Assembly: GCA_021804565.1 (NCBI GenBank)
Contig: JAJZHK010000008.1
Coordinates: forward strand, 1-64,000
Source of the DNA: Pseudomonadota bacterium
GTDB taxonomy: Bacteria; Pseudomonadota; Gammaproteobacteria; Pseudomonadales; Moraxellaceae
Direction: 5' to 3'
DNA length: 64,000 bases
Positions 10,303 to 16,191 of this stretch are shown here, piece after piece (the first letter of the stretch is position 1; each line of letters starts with the position of its first letter). Position numbers and translations under genes: made by a program. The notes under the pieces are model-generated. The model searched no databases, was not told the origin of the DNA, and saw only the letters and a list, made by a program, of their open reading frames with translations.

Positions 10303-10692
10303 TCAGGCCTTGCTCGTTGCCTTGGTCTTGGCCTCCGCAGCCGCAGCCGGCTGTGTCGCCTGCTGGTAAGCCTGACCCATCACTGCGCTCAAGTCGGTAC
10401 GCAACTGATTGCCGATGTCGGTCAGCCGCTCTGCGTCCTTGAGCAGCATCTGGCTCAGCTCGCTCAGCAACTGCGTCTGCTGCGCCTGGAACTGGCTCAG
10501 CGATTCGACATCCTTGACCGCACTGACCGCATGCAGCTGGCGCAAGCCCAGTTCGGCATAGTTACGTGCCGTGCTCAGGGAGTACTCGGTCACCCGCTCG
10601 AGGTTGCCCACCCAGGCGCGATTGATCGCATGCAAAGGGTCGGTCAACTTCTTGGCCTGTTCTTTGAAGGTGTCGCTAAAAAGAGTGTTCAT
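10303..10692 (-). CDS. phaP: Phasin, PHA granule-associated protein
   Basis: 129 residues from ATG 10692 with GGAGATG upstream. Almost entirely amphipathic helix (FKEQAKKLTDPLHAINRAWV, then NYAELGLRQLHAVSAVKDVE) followed by an Ala/Lys-rich tail ending KTKATSKA, as in the phasin_2 family. Phasins coat PHA granules and control their number and size. It is the first gene of the phaP-phaC pair. The 230 bases upstream, to tRNA-Thr, contain no gene; TTGATG near 10800 on the minus strand is a possible -35 but I see no convincing -10. Confidence 0.85.
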   Translation of the reverse strand: MNTLFSDTFKEQAKKLTDPLHAINRAWVGNLERVTEYSLSTARNYAELGLRQLHAVSAVKDVESLSQFQAQQTQLLSELSQMLLKDAERLTDIGNQLRTDLSAVMGQAYQQATQPAAAAEAKTKATSKA

Positions 10693-10921
10693 GATCATCT
10701 CCATCTGATGTTTGAAACCCGATCCAACGCCGTGAGGCAGGCATCCGCCGCACCTCACATCACCAGTGTCTACCTCCAAAATGACAATGTATTGACATGC
10801 ATCAAGCCGGATGCCGAGCTGACCATGAATTCATAGCAGGCGAGCGAGCTCACCGCAAAAGCACCGATGCGGGCAAAAACATGCGAGATGGCCAGGGAGG
10901 CCTGCAGGGGGTGCAGCAGAT

Positions 10922-11054: not shown

Positions 11055-11714
11055 TCACGAACAGCTGATGTCCTCGGCATGCAGGTGCGCATGGTGCTGC
11101 ACCCAGCGCTGCAGCTTGACCTGATCCTCAGGGGTCACCGGTTGCACAAAGATCCAGACCTGGCTGTCAGGCACCATCTCGGCGCGCGATTCGGCCGTAT
11201 AACCCTGGGCCGACAGCTTCTGCATGAGTTGGACCGCTGCGTCATCGCTATGGTAGTGCCCCAGAGAGATCGCTCCTGCAAACCCGCCCTGATCGATGAC
11301 CTCGGCCTCATGGCCCTGGGCACGCAGACGTGCCGCCATGGCCTCGGCATCGGCGATGTATTGCACCGGCGGCATATACACCCAGACCCCGTGCCCACTG
11401 CTGTCCTGCGGACGTGACAAAGCCACCAGTCCTTGCGTCTTCAGCGAGGTGCGCGCGACCTCCCCCTCGGACGGACTGAACGGACCGACCAGGACACAGG
11501 CCGGCGCTTCGCCGGTCGAAGCTGCAGCCGCGGTGAGCGGGCTGGCGATCAAATCTTTAGCAGGCACCGCAGCTTCATTGCCGTGATAGAGCTGCAAACC
11601 TGGCAAAGCACTCTTCTGCTGCAAATCGACCGGCGCCGGCGGCGCATCGAAGTAGGTCTCATAGGCCCAATACACGCCATTGAGCACAACAAGCAGAGCA
11701 AAAATCCATGCCAT
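11055..11714 (-). CDS. SPOR-domain membrane-anchored protein
   Basis: 219 residues. One N-terminal membrane segment (WIFALLVVLNGVYWAYETYF), a Pro/Ala-rich periplasmic linker, and a C-terminal SPOR-like half (about 90-205) that includes ACVLVGPFSPSEGEVA and VWVYMPPVQYIADAEAMAAR. SPOR domains bind glycan strands stripped of stem peptides at the division site. The weaker conservation of the second repeat leaves the ligand uncertain. It lies downstream of coaX on the same strand with 26 bases between, as in Pseudomonas, and probably shares its transcript. Confidence 0.75.
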   Translation of the reverse strand: MAWIFALLVVLNGVYWAYETYFDAPPAPVDLQQKSALPGLQLYHGNEAAVPAKDLIASPLTAAAASTGEAPACVLVGPFSPSEGEVARTSLKTQGLVALSRPQDSSGHGVWVYMPPVQYIADAEAMAARLRAQGHEAEVIDQGGFAGAISLGHYHSDDAAVQLMQKLSAQGYTAESRAEMVPDSQVWIFVQPVTPEDQVKLQRWVQHHAHLHAEDISCS

Positions 11715-11740
11715 GAGTCATATCCTGCCAAAACACGTCC

Positions 11741-12496
11741 TTAGAGTGGCACAGCTGCGCCGGCTCCGCAATCTTGCCCCCAACGCAACAGCCCCCAGAG
11801 GACCAGATCCGGTTCCAGCTCCAGCTGGGCAGCGCTCCAGGGCTCCTGCAGTGCGGCGCTACCACCTCCGGTCAGCACCAGGCGCGGCGGCTTGTGGCTG
11901 CGTTGTTGCAGCTGTGCGTACGCCTGCTGGACGGCAGCCTGCTGCGCCAGCTGCAGGCCGGCCAGCACCGCATCATGGGTGTTACGCGCAAAGCCTGAGG
12001 AACGCAGTGCTGGCTCCGGGCGGATACGCACCCGCGCCGTATGCCTTTGCAGGGCATCGAGCATCAGCGCTGTACCGGGCAGAATATAACCGCCCAGGTG
12101 TTGGCCCTCGGCATCCAGGGCATCGATGGTCAAGGCAGTGCCGGCGTCGACCACCAGGGCGGCCCCCGGACGCCGGGCAGCCGCCAGCAAAGCCAGCCAG
12201 CGATCGACACCCAGGGTTGTCGGCTGCTCATAAGCGTTATGCACCCCCGCTGCATAAGCGCAGCTCCGCGCCAGGCGCACGGGTACCGGCCACAGGGCTT
12301 GCAAGCGATCCCGCAAGGCCGCTTCGCTGGCGCCGTCACGAACACAGCTCACCCACACTTCTTGCGGCGGGCGTGTCTCCCAGGCGGGTGCCGGTGCATC
12401 ACCAGCCAGCACCTCGGCACGCCGACCGGCGAGCAGATCCTCGTCAAAGATCCATTTCAGCCGACTGTTGCCGACATCAAGCAGCAGGATCGCCAC
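11741..12496 (-). CDS. coaX: Type III pantothenate kinase
   Basis: 251 residues with the CoaX phosphate-1 motif LLLDVGNSRLKW at the N-terminus, a substrate segment GVDRWLALLAAARR, and the phosphate-2 motif VVDAGTALTIDAL, then LGGYILPG. It phosphorylates pantothenate in the first step of coenzyme A synthesis and needs a monovalent cation. Start ATG 12496 lies 20 bases inside the end of birA, so the two are coupled. CoaX is the non-homologous replacement of CoaA; no coaA is visible here. Confidence 0.93.
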   Translation of the reverse strand: MAILLLDVGNSRLKWIFDEDLLAGRRAEVLAGDAPAPAWETRPPQEVWVSCVRDGASEAALRDRLQALWPVPVRLARSCAYAAGVHNAYEQPTTLGVDRWLALLAAARRPGAALVVDAGTALTIDALDAEGQHLGGYILPGTALMLDALQRHTARVRIRPEPALRSSGFARNTHDAVLAGLQLAQQAAVQQAYAQLQQRSHKPPRLVLTGGGSAALQEPWSAAQLELEPDLVLWGLLRWGQDCGAGAAVPL

Positions 12497-13445
12497 GCAG
12501 CGTCACCTCCCCACTATTGATCTCGAGCCACTGCCCCATGCTCTCGATACAGAGCGCCCCTGTAGCGCTGACACCACGCCCCCAGCCCTGGATGCGTTCC
12601 TGGCCTCGCCAGGCCTGCACGGGCTGATCCCGCAAAACGTCCAGGGCGGCATAGTCGGCTTGAAAAGCAGCGAAGCCCTGCCGGGCAAACACAAGACAGG
12701 CCGTCTGCAAGGCTAAAACCAGTCGCTCCGCCAAGAGCTGGCGCGAGATATCAACAGCACAGTCGGCGAGACTGATCGCGTTTTGATCGATGCGTTGCCG
12801 GTCGTCCTGGCTAAGATGGTGGTTGAGGCCCAGGCCGATCACCACCTGACTCGGACCCGATGCATCGCCGGCCAGCTCGACCAGCAGGCCCCCCAATTTG
12901 CAGCCATCGATCTGAATGTCATTGGGCCATTTCAGTCCTACCCGCCGGGTCGGCAAAATCGCGTTGACACAGCCGGCCACCGCCACCCCCAGCGCCAGAC
13001 TGAGGCCGGCCAGCTCACTCGCCGCCTGCTCGAAACGCCAACCCAAACTCCCCATGAAGTTACAGGCGTAGGGGGAGTACCAGCTGCGACCATGGCGCCC
13101 GCGGCCTTGCGTCTGACTCTCCGCCAAGACCACCAGAGCATGCCCCTGGCCACGGCTGAAGGCGGCGAAGACATCGGCATTGGTCGAGGCGGTCTCTTCG
13201 TGCACGCAGACCTGCAGGCCGTGTGGCGCCAGAGCCTGCGCCAGGGCCTGCTCGTCGAGCCACTCGATAGGCGGCTCCAGGCGATAGCCGTGGGCGGCGG
13301 CGGTCTGCAGGTTCCAGCCCTTGTCGCGCAGGGCCTGCACCTGCTTCCAGACCGCCGCCCGCGAGATGCCCAAGGACTGACCAAGTTCCTCACCCGAGCG
13401 CCACTCACCGCTCGCCAGCAGCCGGAGCAAGGGCGAGGCTTTCAC
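12477..13445 (-). CDS. birA: Biotin-protein ligase / biotin repressor
   Basis: 322 residues from GTG 13445. An N-terminal winged helix (EELGQSLGISRAAVWKQVQA) marks the bifunctional repressor form. The ligase domain has the biotinyl-AMP loop GRGRHGRSWYSP and KWPNDIQIDG. It attaches biotin to AccB, whose gene is at 47169 in this window, and represses biotin synthesis genes. The GTG overlaps the TGA of the upstream binding-protein gene (GTGA), which fixes both the start and coupling; the length matches the 320 or so expected. Confidence 0.93.
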   Translation of the reverse strand: MKASPLLRLLASGEWRSGEELGQSLGISRAAVWKQVQALRDKGWNLQTAAAHGYRLEPPIEWLDEQALAQALAPHGLQVCVHEETASTNADVFAAFSRGQGHALVVLAESQTQGRGRHGRSWYSPYACNFMGSLGWRFEQAASELAGLSLALGVAVAGCVNAILPTRRVGLKWPNDIQIDGCKLGGLLVELAGDASGPSQVVIGLGLNHHLSQDDRQRIDQNAISLADCAVDISRQLLAERLVLALQTACLVFARQGFAAFQADYAALDVLRDQPVQAWRGQERIQGWGRGVSATGALCIESMGQWLEINSGEVTLRGDPAA

Positions 13446-14590
13446 CGACGCCCCCCCACCGTCAGCTGCGGCTGCCAATGCCCGGCCACCACCTTGTAAA
13501 GGGTGACCGGACCATCCGCCAGATCGCCGTGCGCATCAAACGAGATGTCACCGGTCACCCCGGCATAATGACGCGTCGCCGCCACCGCCGGCAAAACCTT
13601 GGCGGCATCCGTCGACTGGACTTTTTGCATGGCCGCAACGAGCACGCCGACCGCATCATAGGCATAAGGCGCATAGTTTTGTATGGGGCCAAAGCGCTGC
13701 TCGAAGCGGGCCTTGAAAGCGGCTCCCTGGGGCATACGATCGAGCGGCAGGCCGGGCTTGGAAGCTATCGTGCCTTCGGCATCGGCGCCCGCCAGATGGA
13801 TGAACTCCGGGGTGCGCACGCCATCACCGCCGAGCAGCGGAATGTTCAGGCCCAGGCGATGCATCTGCTGCACCATCGGCGCGCCCTGCCCGTACATGCC
13901 GCCAAAAAACACCACATCCGGGTGCTGTCCGCCTATCCGTGTCAGGATCGCGGCAAAGTCATTGGACTTGTCGTCGGTGTACTCTCGATCGATGATCTGC
14001 GCACCCGCCGCTTGCGCCGCCTGGACAAATTCGTCCGCCAGGCCCTGGCCGTATGCGGTGCGGTCATCGATCACGGCGATACGGTGTGCGTGCAGGTCGT
14101 GCACGGCGTAGCTGCCCAAGGCATGACCCTGCTGGGCGTCATTGGCCATCAGGCGAAAGGTCGTCGCGTAACCCTGCTGGGTGTAACGTACAGCGGTCGC
14201 CGAAGGAGAAATCTGCGCAATACCCGCCGCCGCATAGATACGTGAGGCGGGGATGGAGGTGCCGGAGTTGAGATGACCGACCACCGCCAGCACCCCTTCA
14301 TCGACAAACTTCTGAGCCACCTGCGTCGCCACACGCGGATCGGCCTGATCGTCTTCACTGTCCAGGGCCAGCCGCAAGGGATGTCCGGCAATCAGGATAT
14401 GGCGCGCATTGACCTCATCGATCGCCAGCCGCACACCGTTTTCATTGTCTTTACCGATCGCCGCCTGCTGGCCGGTCAGTGGCGAAGCCTGACCGATCAG
14501 GACCGCACCGTGACGACCACCATCGTGATGGCAAGCGCTCAAGGCCAGCATCAAGACCATCCCGGCACAACCCCGCATATAGCGCACCAT
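13442..14590 (-). CDS. Branched-chain amino acid-type ABC substrate-binding lipoprotein
   Basis: 382 residues from ATG 14590 (GGATGTGA upstream). A lipoprotein signal ends LMLALSAC, with Cys about 20. The mature part is a Peripla_BP_6/LivK-type receptor: GQASPLTGQQAAIGKDNENG, DDQADPRVATQVAQKFVDEG, VVGHLNSGTS and AYDAVGVLVAAM. Such proteins capture branched-chain amino acids, amides or urea. No permease or ATPase gene is adjacent, so it is an orphan receptor. It is the first gene of an operon with birA and coaX, which is unusual. An 8-base inverted repeat (CTTCATGC/GCATGAAG, 14654-14679) lies in its leader. Confidence 0.85.
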   Translation of the reverse strand: MVRYMRGCAGMVLMLALSACHHDGGRHGAVLIGQASPLTGQQAAIGKDNENGVRLAIDEVNARHILIAGHPLRLALDSEDDQADPRVATQVAQKFVDEGVLAVVGHLNSGTSIPASRIYAAAGIAQISPSATAVRYTQQGYATTFRLMANDAQQGHALGSYAVHDLHAHRIAVIDDRTAYGQGLADEFVQAAQAAGAQIIDREYTDDKSNDFAAILTRIGGQHPDVVFFGGMYGQGAPMVQQMHRLGLNIPLLGGDGVRTPEFIHLAGADAEGTIASKPGLPLDRMPQGAAFKARFEQRFGPIQNYAPYAYDAVGVLVAAMQKVQSTDAAKVLPAVAATRHYAGVTGDISFDAHGDLADGPVTLYKVVAGHWQPQLTVGGRR

Positions 14591-14761
14591 GCTCACATCC
14601 TCTGTCGGCAAAGAAAGACAGCATTATGACGGAGCGACGGGACGGTGCAAGACCTTCATGCAGCAGCCGTGGCATGAAGCAGAAGCAGGAGGGGGGGATC
14701 AGCGACACAGACCACAGGCTGGACGGGGTGGGGCACGGCGTCCGCTCGAAAAAGGCGCAAT

Positions 14762-14791
14762 AAAAAATAAAAAAGGGCGGTTGCCCGCCCC
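14762..14791 (-). terminator. Rho-independent terminator of the Rsm-type small RNA
   Basis: On the minus strand GGGCGG-GCAA-CCGCCC (14775-14790) is followed at once by TTTTTTATTTTTT (14774-14762). A GC-rich stem with a long U tract is a textbook intrinsic terminator for leftward transcription. Nothing protein-coding ends here on this strand, which points to a non-coding transcript. Confidence 0.85.
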
Positions 14792-15034
14792 GTTTCGCTC
14801 TTGCCAGCATCCTGCCGACAAAGACGTAGCTTCCTTTCTTCTTCTTCCCTGAACTATCGCCATCCCGGCGAAGCATCCATGAACCTTCCTGGCATCTGTC
14901 CCTGGGTCTTGATCCTGAAGACCTTGGCCATCCTGGCCATCAGCATCCTGCCGACACAGCAAGACTATCAGGACGGCGCCAGAGGACAAGTGGGGGGTAG
15001 GCGAGGGCAAGCCCTGTCCCCCGTTTGCCCTCGC
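14768..15034 (-). ncRNA. CsrB/RsmZ-family CsrA-sequestering small RNA
   Basis: The minus strand between 14985 and 14800 holds ten GGA motifs in 185 bases, mostly of the form CAGGATG, CAGGGA or CAGGAAG, and several sit in hairpin loops: GGCC-AGGAT-GGCC (14926-14938), GTCTT-CAGGATC-AAGAC (14906-14922) and CGCC-GGGAT-GGCG (14858-14870). One more GGA lies in the loop of a 10-bp hairpin at 15001-15034. The transcript ends at a strong terminator. This is the architecture of CsrB/RsmY/RsmZ RNAs, which bind many CsrA/RsmA dimers. A perfect GacA box is upstream at 15127-15144. The 5' end is uncertain: TTGCGC-N17-TTTATT would start near 15034; TTGTCC-N16-TAGTCT would start near 14960. There is no credible reading frame. 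Confidence 0.85.
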
Positions 15035-15040
15035 TTTTTT
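15001..15040 (+). terminator. 10-bp hairpin followed by T6: plus-strand terminator or 5' hairpin of the small RNA
   Basis: GCGAGGGCAA (15001-15010) pairs perfectly with TTGCCCTCGC (15025-15034), then T6. Read rightward it is a perfect intrinsic terminator, yet no rightward gene ends here. Read leftward it would be a first stem with a GGGGGACAGGG loop containing GGA, and the T tract would instead be part of an AT-rich promoter. I cannot decide between the two. Confidence 0.45.
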
Positions 15041-15126
15041 AATAAAAAAATACAATGGCTTACGCGCAAAGACCCTGATCGGCCGACGACCATGGCTACA
15101 GCATTTTCAGCCATGACTGACGTCAT

Positions 15127-15144
15127 TGTAAGCATAGGCTTACA
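15127..15144. promoter_or_regulatory. GacA-binding upstream activating sequence
   Basis: TGTAAGCATAGGCTTACA is an exact match to the GacA consensus TGTAAG-N6-CTTACA, known from upstream of rsmX, rsmY and rsmZ. It lies about 100 to 175 bases upstream of the two possible starts of the small RNA, in the gap between it and the LysR gene. Control of the RNA by GacS/GacA (not in this window) follows from family knowledge. Confidence 0.85.
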
Positions 15145-15176: not shown

Positions 15177-16094
15177 TCAACGCAACGCACCATCTGAAAT
15201 CAGCCATCCCTGGCCACCGAGACGGGTCGCCAGAAAGTCGATGAACATCCGTGTCAAGGTGGGCAGGTGTTGCCGGGACGGGTACATGGCGTAGAGTCCG
15301 CCATCGTGAACACGGTAGTTTTCGAGGATGGTCAGGAGCTGGCCCTGCTCGAGTTCTCGCTGACACAGATAAGGAGAAACCAGCGCGATGCCCAGGCCCG
15401 CGACGGCCGCCTGTACCGACAAGGTCAGATTGCTGACGGTGAGGCGACCTTTGACCAGCAGCTGGGTCTGGTGACCATCACGACAGTCGACCACCCGCAA
15501 ACGATTCTCCGTACCCCGCGGAAAAAGAATGATCTCATGATCGGCCAGTTCCGCCAGATGCTGGGGATGACCATGTTGGGCGAGGTACTCCGGGCTGGCC
15601 ACCCAGCGTCGGGTGACCAGGCCAAGCTTGCGCGCCACCAGGGAGGAGTCGGCGAACTCGCCGATACGCAAGGCCAGATCCATGCCTTCCTCCACCAGAT
15701 TGACCAGCCGGCCGCTGAGATCCGCCTCGATGCTGACCTTGGGATGCATCATCATGAACTCGGCGATCAAGGGGCCGACAAACCACAGGCCGAGCTCGAC
15801 CGGCATGGTGATACGCAGGCGTCCTTGCGGCATCTCCTGACGTTCACGCACCTCATCTTCAGCTTCCTGCAGTTCCTGAAACACACTGAGCAGATGCCGG
15901 TGCAGTGCACGTCCGGCGTCGCTCAAATGGATTCTGCGGGTGGTGCGCATCAGCAGACGTACGCCCAGCTCATCCTCCAGACGCGCCAGCGAACGGCTGA
16001 TCGAGGACTTGGGTCGGCCCAGTCGCTGCGCCGCTGCGGTCAGGCTGCCGTCCTCGATCACACGAAAAAAAACCTCAGCATCTTTAAGATCCAT
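15177..16094 (-). CDS. LysR-family transcriptional regulator
   Basis: 305 residues from ATG 16094. N-terminal winged HTH (LTAAAQRLGRPKSSISRSLA) and a LysR substrate-binding domain (GRLRITMPVELGLWFVGPLI, LVARKLGLVTRRWVASPEYL). It belongs to the subgroup seen beside pirin and quinone or nitroreductase genes. It diverges from the pirin-nitroreductase-DoxX cluster, the normal arrangement for a LysR regulator and its targets. The 97-base gap between them holds CTAGTT/AACTAG half-sites around 16133-16164, a possible binding region. Inducer unknown. Confidence 0.88.
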   Translation of the reverse strand: MDLKDAEVFFRVIEDGSLTAAAQRLGRPKSSISRSLARLEDELGVRLLMRTTRRIHLSDAGRALHRHLLSVFQELQEAEDEVRERQEMPQGRLRITMPVELGLWFVGPLIAEFMMMHPKVSIEADLSGRLVNLVEEGMDLALRIGEFADSSLVARKLGLVTRRWVASPEYLAQHGHPQHLAELADHEIILFPRGTENRLRVVDCRDGHQTQLLVKGRLTVSNLTLSVQAAVAGLGIALVSPYLCQRELEQGQLLTILENYRVHDGGLYAMYPSRQHLPTLTRMFIDFLATRLGGQGWLISDGALR

Positions 16095-16191
16095 TGTAAG
16101 CACCATGACAACAGTTATTAGCATCAAGAGAGACTAGTTCAAAAATAACAACAAAACTAGACTCATCGCCATCACCCAGAGGGTTTTCATC

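Follow-up and report, generated by a model that had tools for sequence, protein, structure and literature searches.

In Escherichia coli, the UvrY palindrome upstream of csrB is centred at −183/−182, and a passage of the same paper (PMC4682653) proposes that BarA-UvrY orthologues transcribe RNAs of this kind across the gammaproteobacteria. This kind of RNA and its presence in the Moraxellaceae have already been predicted, according to passages and tables of several papers. Two RsmA-regulating RNAs are predicted in Acinetobacter ADP1 (PMC5568370, Table 2), and the accompanying passage states that such RNAs had earlier been predicted or discovered in the species it names, ADP1 included. RsmX, RsmY and RsmZ are bracketed for A. 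baumannii in Table 1 of PMC7366521, citing Kulkarni 2006 and Cerqueira 2014, where we take square brackets to mean predicted, and a CsrB-like RNA is drawn in an inferred A. baylyi network in PMC12442408, citing Kulkarni 2006. The passages on the predicted Acinetobacter RNAs contain no functional test. Among the titles and abstract openings listed in our literature search, none reports a CsrB-type RNA from the Moraxellaceae, and PMC8567240 contains none of six small-RNA or Gac terms. As for the regulators, passages in the literature report that GacSA of Acinetobacter controls hundreds of genes (PMC5295007), that A. baumannii requires csrA to grow on rich media (PMC12802169), that csrA is truncated in one line of ADP1 (PMC12442408), and that the BarA sensor domains of Moraxellaceae form a separate branch (PMC8639471); PMC11472050, PMC10746170 and PMC10878099 are cited here beside PMC8639471 and PMC5295007.

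In this study, we analysed a locus within a 64-kb stretch of DNA, referred to below as the window, from an uncultured genus of this family. We put the probability that the locus encodes a CsrA-antagonist RNA of the CsrB/RsmZ class under a GacA-type box at roughly nine in ten. Since the proposal in PMC4682653 covers the gammaproteobacteria, a specialist would expect such an RNA rather than be surprised by it; the window RNA itself and its genus were not found in print in our literature search.

The locus and its features

The putative RNA gene lies in a 580-nt intergenic region flanked by a LysR-type gene (15177–16127) and a periplasmic binding-protein gene (13442–14596), all on the minus strand (Table 1). 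In the order of transcription, the box (15144–15127) is followed by promoter-like hexamers, the ten-GGA stretch and an intrinsic terminator. A sequence-only reading of the window had described these elements except the hexamers, and they were located as it had placed them: ten GGA motifs within about 185 bases of the minus strand, with first Gs from 14948 to 14812; perfect GGA hairpins at 14858–14870 (CGCC-GGGAT-GGCG), 14906–14922 (GTCTT-CAGGATC-AAGAC) and 14926–14938 (GGCC-AGGAT-GGCC); and a strong terminator at 14762–14791, consisting of a stem (14791–14774) and then a T-run. The box had been called exact, as it is, and it is the sole site with at most two mismatches in the 64-kb window, where 0.54 would be expected at that level. 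If transcription starts at about 14955, which is an estimate, the box centre is at −180.5. A scan with the sigma-70 consensus did not pick up the −10 and −35 hexamers of the window RNA.

Table 1. Features of the predicted RNA gene, listed by window position
Feature	Position	Strand	Remark
CsrB/RsmZ-class small RNA gene (predicted)	14764..14955	−	about 190 nt; transcript start estimated from −10-like hexamer
GGA hairpin 1, UCGGC-AGGAU-GCUGA	14940..14954	−	helix present in 6/6 aligned family RNAs
GGA hairpin 2, UGGCC-AGGAU-GGCCA	14925..14939	−	within the genus, 1 pair with two-sided change
GGA hairpin 3, GGUCUU-CAGGAUC-AAGACC	14905..14923	−	within the genus, 2 pairs with two-sided change
GGA hairpin 4, UCGCC-GGGAU-GGCGA	14857..14871	−	pairing kept in 3/3 genus members
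Short GGA hairpin 5, UUC-AGGGAA-GAA	14842..14853	−	1 pair with two-sided change
3' GGA hairpin 6	14801..14821	−	weaker, because only 79% of cells are paired in the genus alignment
Intrinsic terminator, GGGGCGGGCAACCGCCCT plus T-run	14764..14791	−	helix in 6/6 aligned family RNAs
Promoter-like TTGTCC (14989–14984) and TAGTCT (14967–14962)	14962..14989	−	spacer 16; picked by eye with the relatives' alignment
GacA/UvrY-type box, TGTAAGCCTATGCTTACA (TGTAAG-N6-CTTACA, exact)	15127..15144	−	centre about −180

Between the box and the promoter, a terminator-like hairpin (GCGAGGGCAA...TTGCCCTCGC) with a T-run reads rightward on the plus strand (15001–15052). No obvious rightward gene precedes it, by eye it is missing in the two other members of the genus (G001 and G002), and a terminator scan with loops of up to 8 did not report it. 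Relatives of the binding protein among the matches listed are mostly from Gallionella, Thiobacillus and similar bacteria.

GGA motifs, hairpin loops and folding

The minus strand of the window has two places where 185 nt hold ten GGA motifs; the plus strand has none. The other cluster (11662–11907, minus strand) overlaps two minus-strand ORFs. Dinucleotide shuffles reached ten motifs in 9 of 2000 cases for the 580-nt intergenic region, and shuffles of only the RNA did so in 205 of 2000, so the number of GGA motifs is not extreme for the composition of the RNA and is by itself not decisive. Their placement in loops depends on the stems considered: five lie in loops closed by stems of at least five pairs, which 27 of 1000 GGA-keeping shuffles reached, and six in loops closed by stems of at least four pairs, which is not beyond chance (159 of 1000). 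When the five-pair test was applied to 12 RNAs, fewer than 50 of 1000 shuffles reached the observed value in four (the window RNA and those of G001, G005 and G043); such enrichment was absent in the other eight, including one of two RNA copies in G004 (G004b) and a second RNA of the same genome, described below. The fold of 14764–14965 is more stable than its shuffles (z −2.87; 2 of 200).

Matches to RNA families

At gathering thresholds, Rfam reported two tRNAs only in the whole window and no RNA of the CsrB kind. In a permissive search of a 651-base stretch (E up to 10, with three lower-scoring overlapping matches from the same clan omitted), the best match was CsrB (RF00018; 33.2 bits, E 1.8e-7), which runs end to end over 14958–14765 and misses the curated cut-off of 71. 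PrrB_RsmZ (RF00166) and RsmY (RF00195) were not listed for the window RNA at E ≤ 10, a statement that excludes the three omitted clan matches. In the covariance check proposed in the sequence-only reading, CsrB is recognised at a low E value, below its cut-off, and RsmY and RsmZ are not among the matches listed. Relatives of the window RNA in G005 and G043, two other genomes of the family, matched RF00166 with 26.8 and 33.6 bits, respectively (cut-off 44). G043 has another, sub-threshold PrrB/RsmZ match (29.1 bits; L115:1048–1160) beside the first; this double match and the tandem RNAs of G004 (L085) are a local duplication. The window RNA had no match in the plasmids or phages searched.

Conservation in relatives

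Conservation is the strongest evidence for the predicted window RNA. BLAST of the RNA against 38 genomes, our own included, gave matches in seven at E ≤ 0.01, the convincing ones being our own genome, G001 (85%) and G002 (82%) of the same genus, and G004 and G005 of the same family. Those in G031 and G032 (E 0.0076–0.0096) were attributed to chance. A covariance model, R1, built from six sequences without the box, was run on 61 genomes of the family. It matched 19 of them at E ≤ 1; 13 still matched at E ≤ 1e-3, and five of these 13 genomes are represented in the model. The RNA, terminator and box are kept in G001 and G002 and, in two other genera, in G004 (where there are two RNA copies in tandem), G005 and G043. 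G043, which is outside the model, has 11 GGA motifs and a one-mismatch box at −185 from the match start.

The position of the box was surveyed at 26 R1 loci (L110–L135) minus three with too short a flank (L117, L119 and L134). Six genomes (L110–L115) have a box with no or one mismatch at −175 to −185 from the match start, and L129 has one with two mismatches at −163. The box has one mismatch in G001, G002, G005 and G043, and two in G004b. At the weaker matches it is degenerate or absent: the best sites have two mismatches at L116 and L123 (at −155 and −214), L118, L120 and L121 have only three-mismatch sites, and no box was found upstream at L122. When start sites were estimated from −10 hexamers picked by eye, the box centre was 180.5–190.5 bp away in six RNAs of the window type and 167.5 bp away in G004b. 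The sequence between box and promoter drifts strongly among relatives. L118, L120, L121 and L122, all from one genus (g13), show by eye candidate RNAs that are GGA-rich, have terminators and are accompanied by palindromes in altered form, such as TGTGCGATATATCTCACA, which suggests that the GacA site may have shifted there.

Low R1 scores are unspecific. The matches at L130 (28.7 bits) and L124 (23.2 bits) appear by eye to be coding sequence, so R1 matches were trusted only above about 33 bits; a weak match in G001 (C7, L091) also looks like coding sequence. Across the order (145 genomes), R1 gave matches at E ≤ 0.01 in 10, two of them our own and one of the same genus. Among the other eight loci, four have at least five GGA motifs on one strand, and one of these four (L209) has a one-mismatch box at −173. 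A second model, R2 (five RNAs), was set aside for its poor alignment.

Base pairing was compared among the three genus members. Four of 39 pairs show changes in both partners, a number reached by 11 of 500 shuffles, and slid controls gave 0, 0, 0, 0, 0 and 2. The comparison used only three sequences and a structure derived from the window sequence itself, which gives that structure an advantage over the slid versions. RNAalifold on six sequences found 29 pairs, ten with two-sided change and some broken. These data bear on the notion that the region is functionless and either coding or GGA-rich by chance, a notion that could draw on the 118-aa ORFs overlapping the RNA on both strands and on the frequency with which shuffles of the RNA reach its GGA count. 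Single-base insertions and deletions between genus members, the two-sided pair changes and the conservation across genera argue against it, and we consider it extremely unlikely. Another explanation is that the LysR-type gene gives rise to the region as a processed 3' untranslated part, or that the region serves the binding-protein gene as a leader. Both neighbours do share the strand of the RNA, as this would require. However, the strong terminator stands between the RNA and the downstream gene; two of the related loci (L002 and L003) have, by eye, different sequence upstream of the box but retain RNA, promoter region and box; and in G004 the RNAs are, also by eye, in a different gene neighbourhood. 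This explanation is very unlikely, and an independent gene for a CsrA-antagonist RNA remains the preferred reading.

GacS, GacA and CsrA in the genome

The assembly, which is 92% complete, yielded a single CsrA (65 aa); the protein retains L4 and R44, which are named CsrA residues in a passage of PMC7652899. GacA is 53% identical to E. coli UvrY and scores 292.3 bits against an NCBIfam cut-off of 280, and its gene is followed by what is by inspection a uvrC-like ORF, in the same order as in E. coli. A hybrid kinase of the GacS/BarA type (933 aa) with HAMP, HisKA, HATPase, receiver and Hpt domains adjoins an ORF that is cysM-like by inspection; BarA is its best match, at 685.7 bits, which is under the BarA equivalog cut-off of 890.

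GacA-like matches of at least 200 bits were present in 57 of the 61 family genomes. None of the four genomes in which no such match was found (G003, G019, G061 and G064) has an RNA match above 20 bits. This co-occurrence proves little, because most GacA-positive genomes of the family are without a convincing R1 match. G019 (genus g3, 94% complete) has neither a GacA-like match nor a strong RNA match, and G004 and G043 of the same genus have both; the absences in G019 may reflect joint loss or missing contigs.

A second predicted RNA beside csrA

A second GGA-rich RNA is predicted at C24:34147–34422 of our genome (L094:1490–1765), with a one-mismatch box at C24:34158 and a terminator seen by eye. 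It sits between a tRNA and csrA and is convergent with csrA. The arrangement is kept in G001 and G002, whose boxes are TGTCAGCAAAAGCTGACA and TGTCGGTAAAAGCTGACA, and in all three genus members the box centre is 87.5–88.5 bp upstream of the estimated start. Rfam listed no match for this RNA in L094 at E ≤ 0.01, and its GGA motifs are not clearly enriched in hairpin loops.

A predicted Acinetobacter RNA and the specificity of the box

In six genomes of genus g15, that of Acinetobacter, 17 box sites were inspected in both orientations. Two perfect ones (G016 and G041) precede GGA-rich stretches, with 8 and 7 GGA motifs in 150 nt, respectively, and a terminator by eye; the other 15 do not. The G016 stretch, queried together with its box, matched 35 of 41 genomes of this genus, its own included. 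Loci were checked in 20 of the 35, and all 20 have 6–9 GGA motifs and a box whose offset agrees to within one base; at 14 of the 19 non-query loci the BLAST match did not extend over the box. The boxes have no mismatch in five cases, one in 11 and two in four, and the 20 loci hold only one further site with at most two mismatches. At L172 and L215 the distance from box centre to estimated start is about 65 bp. Ahead of the terminator, AAGCACAACCTCAT is strongly conserved (L187–L206 and L215).

Four A. baumannii records matched the Acinetobacter RNA at 67.8% over 77% of the query; in two other Acinetobacter records the match was restricted to the query edge. In one of the four A. baumannii records, which is chromosome-sized but filed as a plasmid (L215:1500–1740, minus strand), a one-mismatch box is followed by 8 GGA motifs. 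No annotated gene was found at this site, in an annotation (PLSDB) that is incomplete, and Rfam gave no match there at E ≤ 1. The G041 RNA had no match in the plasmids searched. The Acinetobacter RNA may be related to the window RNA by function only.

How specific is the palindrome? The window RNA might be a CsrA antagonist and its palindrome nevertheless be read by another LuxR-type or an unrelated regulator rather than by GacA. Sites with at most one mismatch occur in 55 of the 61 family genomes, and in several of these a reversed control pattern is found at least as often (in G072, 18 control sites against 11 box sites); moreover, as described above, only 2 of the 17 sites in the six g15 genomes precede a stretch with at least seven GGA motifs. 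Against this, GacA is present and scores above its curated cut-off, and the box keeps its place near −180 before RNAs of the window type while the flanks drift. Furthermore, our own 2.5-Mb genome has three sites with at most one mismatch and none for the reversed control, and two of the three precede GGA-rich RNAs. The third (C18:4594, one mismatch) was rejected as an RNA site, there being by eye no GGA cluster nearby. A regulator other than GacA therefore seems unlikely, and we retain GacA as the probable reader of the box.

The placement of our genome in the Moraxellaceae is deduced from G072, a member of the same family (f1), whose 16S rRNA is Acinetobacter-like: it is 96.6% identical to that of A. 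baumannii, with the next other genus listed at 87.4%, and contains the exact target of the Acinetobacter probe ACA652; the family name follows the taxonomy line of an A. baumannii record. A betaproteobacterial affiliation, considered in view of the binding-protein relatives, was rejected on this 16S similarity and on 23S rRNA: when the 61 family genomes were searched for the 23S site of two probes, 20 gave a match (our own did not), and 19 of these carry the GAM42a-type base.

Proposed mechanism and candidate targets

Features of the CsrB/RsmZ class (Rfam clan CL00106) found at the locus are several GGA motifs, five of the ten in loops of stems of at least five pairs, and a conserved Rho-independent terminator. 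Features of a GacA/UvrY-controlled RNA gene found here are an 18-bp palindrome upstream at about −180, as counted from the estimated start, and orthologues of GacS, albeit below the BarA equivalog cut-off, and GacA. Together with CsrA, the second RNA, the conservation and a box at the csrB distance, they support the RsmY/RsmZ-type design ascribed to the locus in the sequence-only reading.

From this design we infer transcription, GacA binding, CsrA binding, sequestration and targets of the window RNA as follows. A signal would be sensed by the hybrid kinase GacS, leading to phosphorylation of GacA; phosphorylated GacA would bind the palindrome near −180 and activate leftward transcription; the resulting RNA of about 190 nt would offer GGA motifs, unpaired or in hairpin loops, to several CsrA dimers; and CsrA would thereby be sequestered, freeing the mRNAs it represses. 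The second RNA beside csrA, having its own box, would act in parallel, like CsrC beside CsrB or RsmY beside RsmZ.

The sequence-only reading suggested that genes of the window for storage polymer, secretion and adhesion may be under the control of this cascade. Within the window, a phasin-like gene is a plausible candidate target of CsrA. Its leader (10692–10777, minus strand; start taken as 10692) has GGA motifs at −10, −33, −54 and −85; the one at −10 overlies the ribosome-binding site, and one lies, by eye, in a GGC-GGAT-GCC hairpin. The leader had no match in L002–L004. A single GGA lies 10 bases ahead of the ATG of the binding-protein gene, and single motifs also precede the polyhydroxyalkanoate-synthase-like gene (−38) and the LysR-type gene (−71). 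Of the four starts examined, two (phasin-like and binding-protein) thus carry a GGA roughly 10 bases ahead of the start codon, as an ordinary ribosome-binding site would also yield; only the phasin-like gene has additional GGA motifs within 80 bases upstream.

Taking these RNAs together, we lean towards the view that in the Moraxellaceae, A. baumannii included, GacA acts via CsrA-antagonist RNAs that Rfam does not cover, with at least three promoter plans: a box near −180 (the window type), near −88 (beside csrA) and near −65 (the Acinetobacter type). If this is true, what is new is the window type, the csrA-adjacent type, the fixed spacing and the genus-wide conservation. With the window RNA, an uncultured genus of the Moraxellaceae would gain the RNA arm of its Gac/Csr cascade, which the promoter spacing and the conservation make directly testable.

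Comparison with known systems

The predicted RNAs of Acinetobacter (passages of PMC5568370 and PMC7366521) belong to the same family and have the same proposed role; one of them may be the counterpart of the window RNA or of the Acinetobacter RNA found here. The Acinetobacter RNA found here resembles the window RNA in its GacA-type box, its 6–9 GGA motifs and, by eye, its terminator. However, its box lies about 65 rather than about 180 bp upstream, it is by eye shorter, and it has no Rfam match at the loci tested. Pseudomonas PrrB/RsmZ (RF00166) has the terminator, GGA hairpins and GacA box in common with the window RNA, which in turn has no listed RF00166 match (lower-scoring clan matches omitted). 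E. coli CsrB (RF00018), under BarA-UvrY, likewise has CAGGAUG-type hairpins, a terminator, a UvrY palindrome at about −182 and a second RNA; the window RNA differs in its length of about 190 nt, against 356 positions in the model, and in its score of 33.2 bits against the cut-off of 71.
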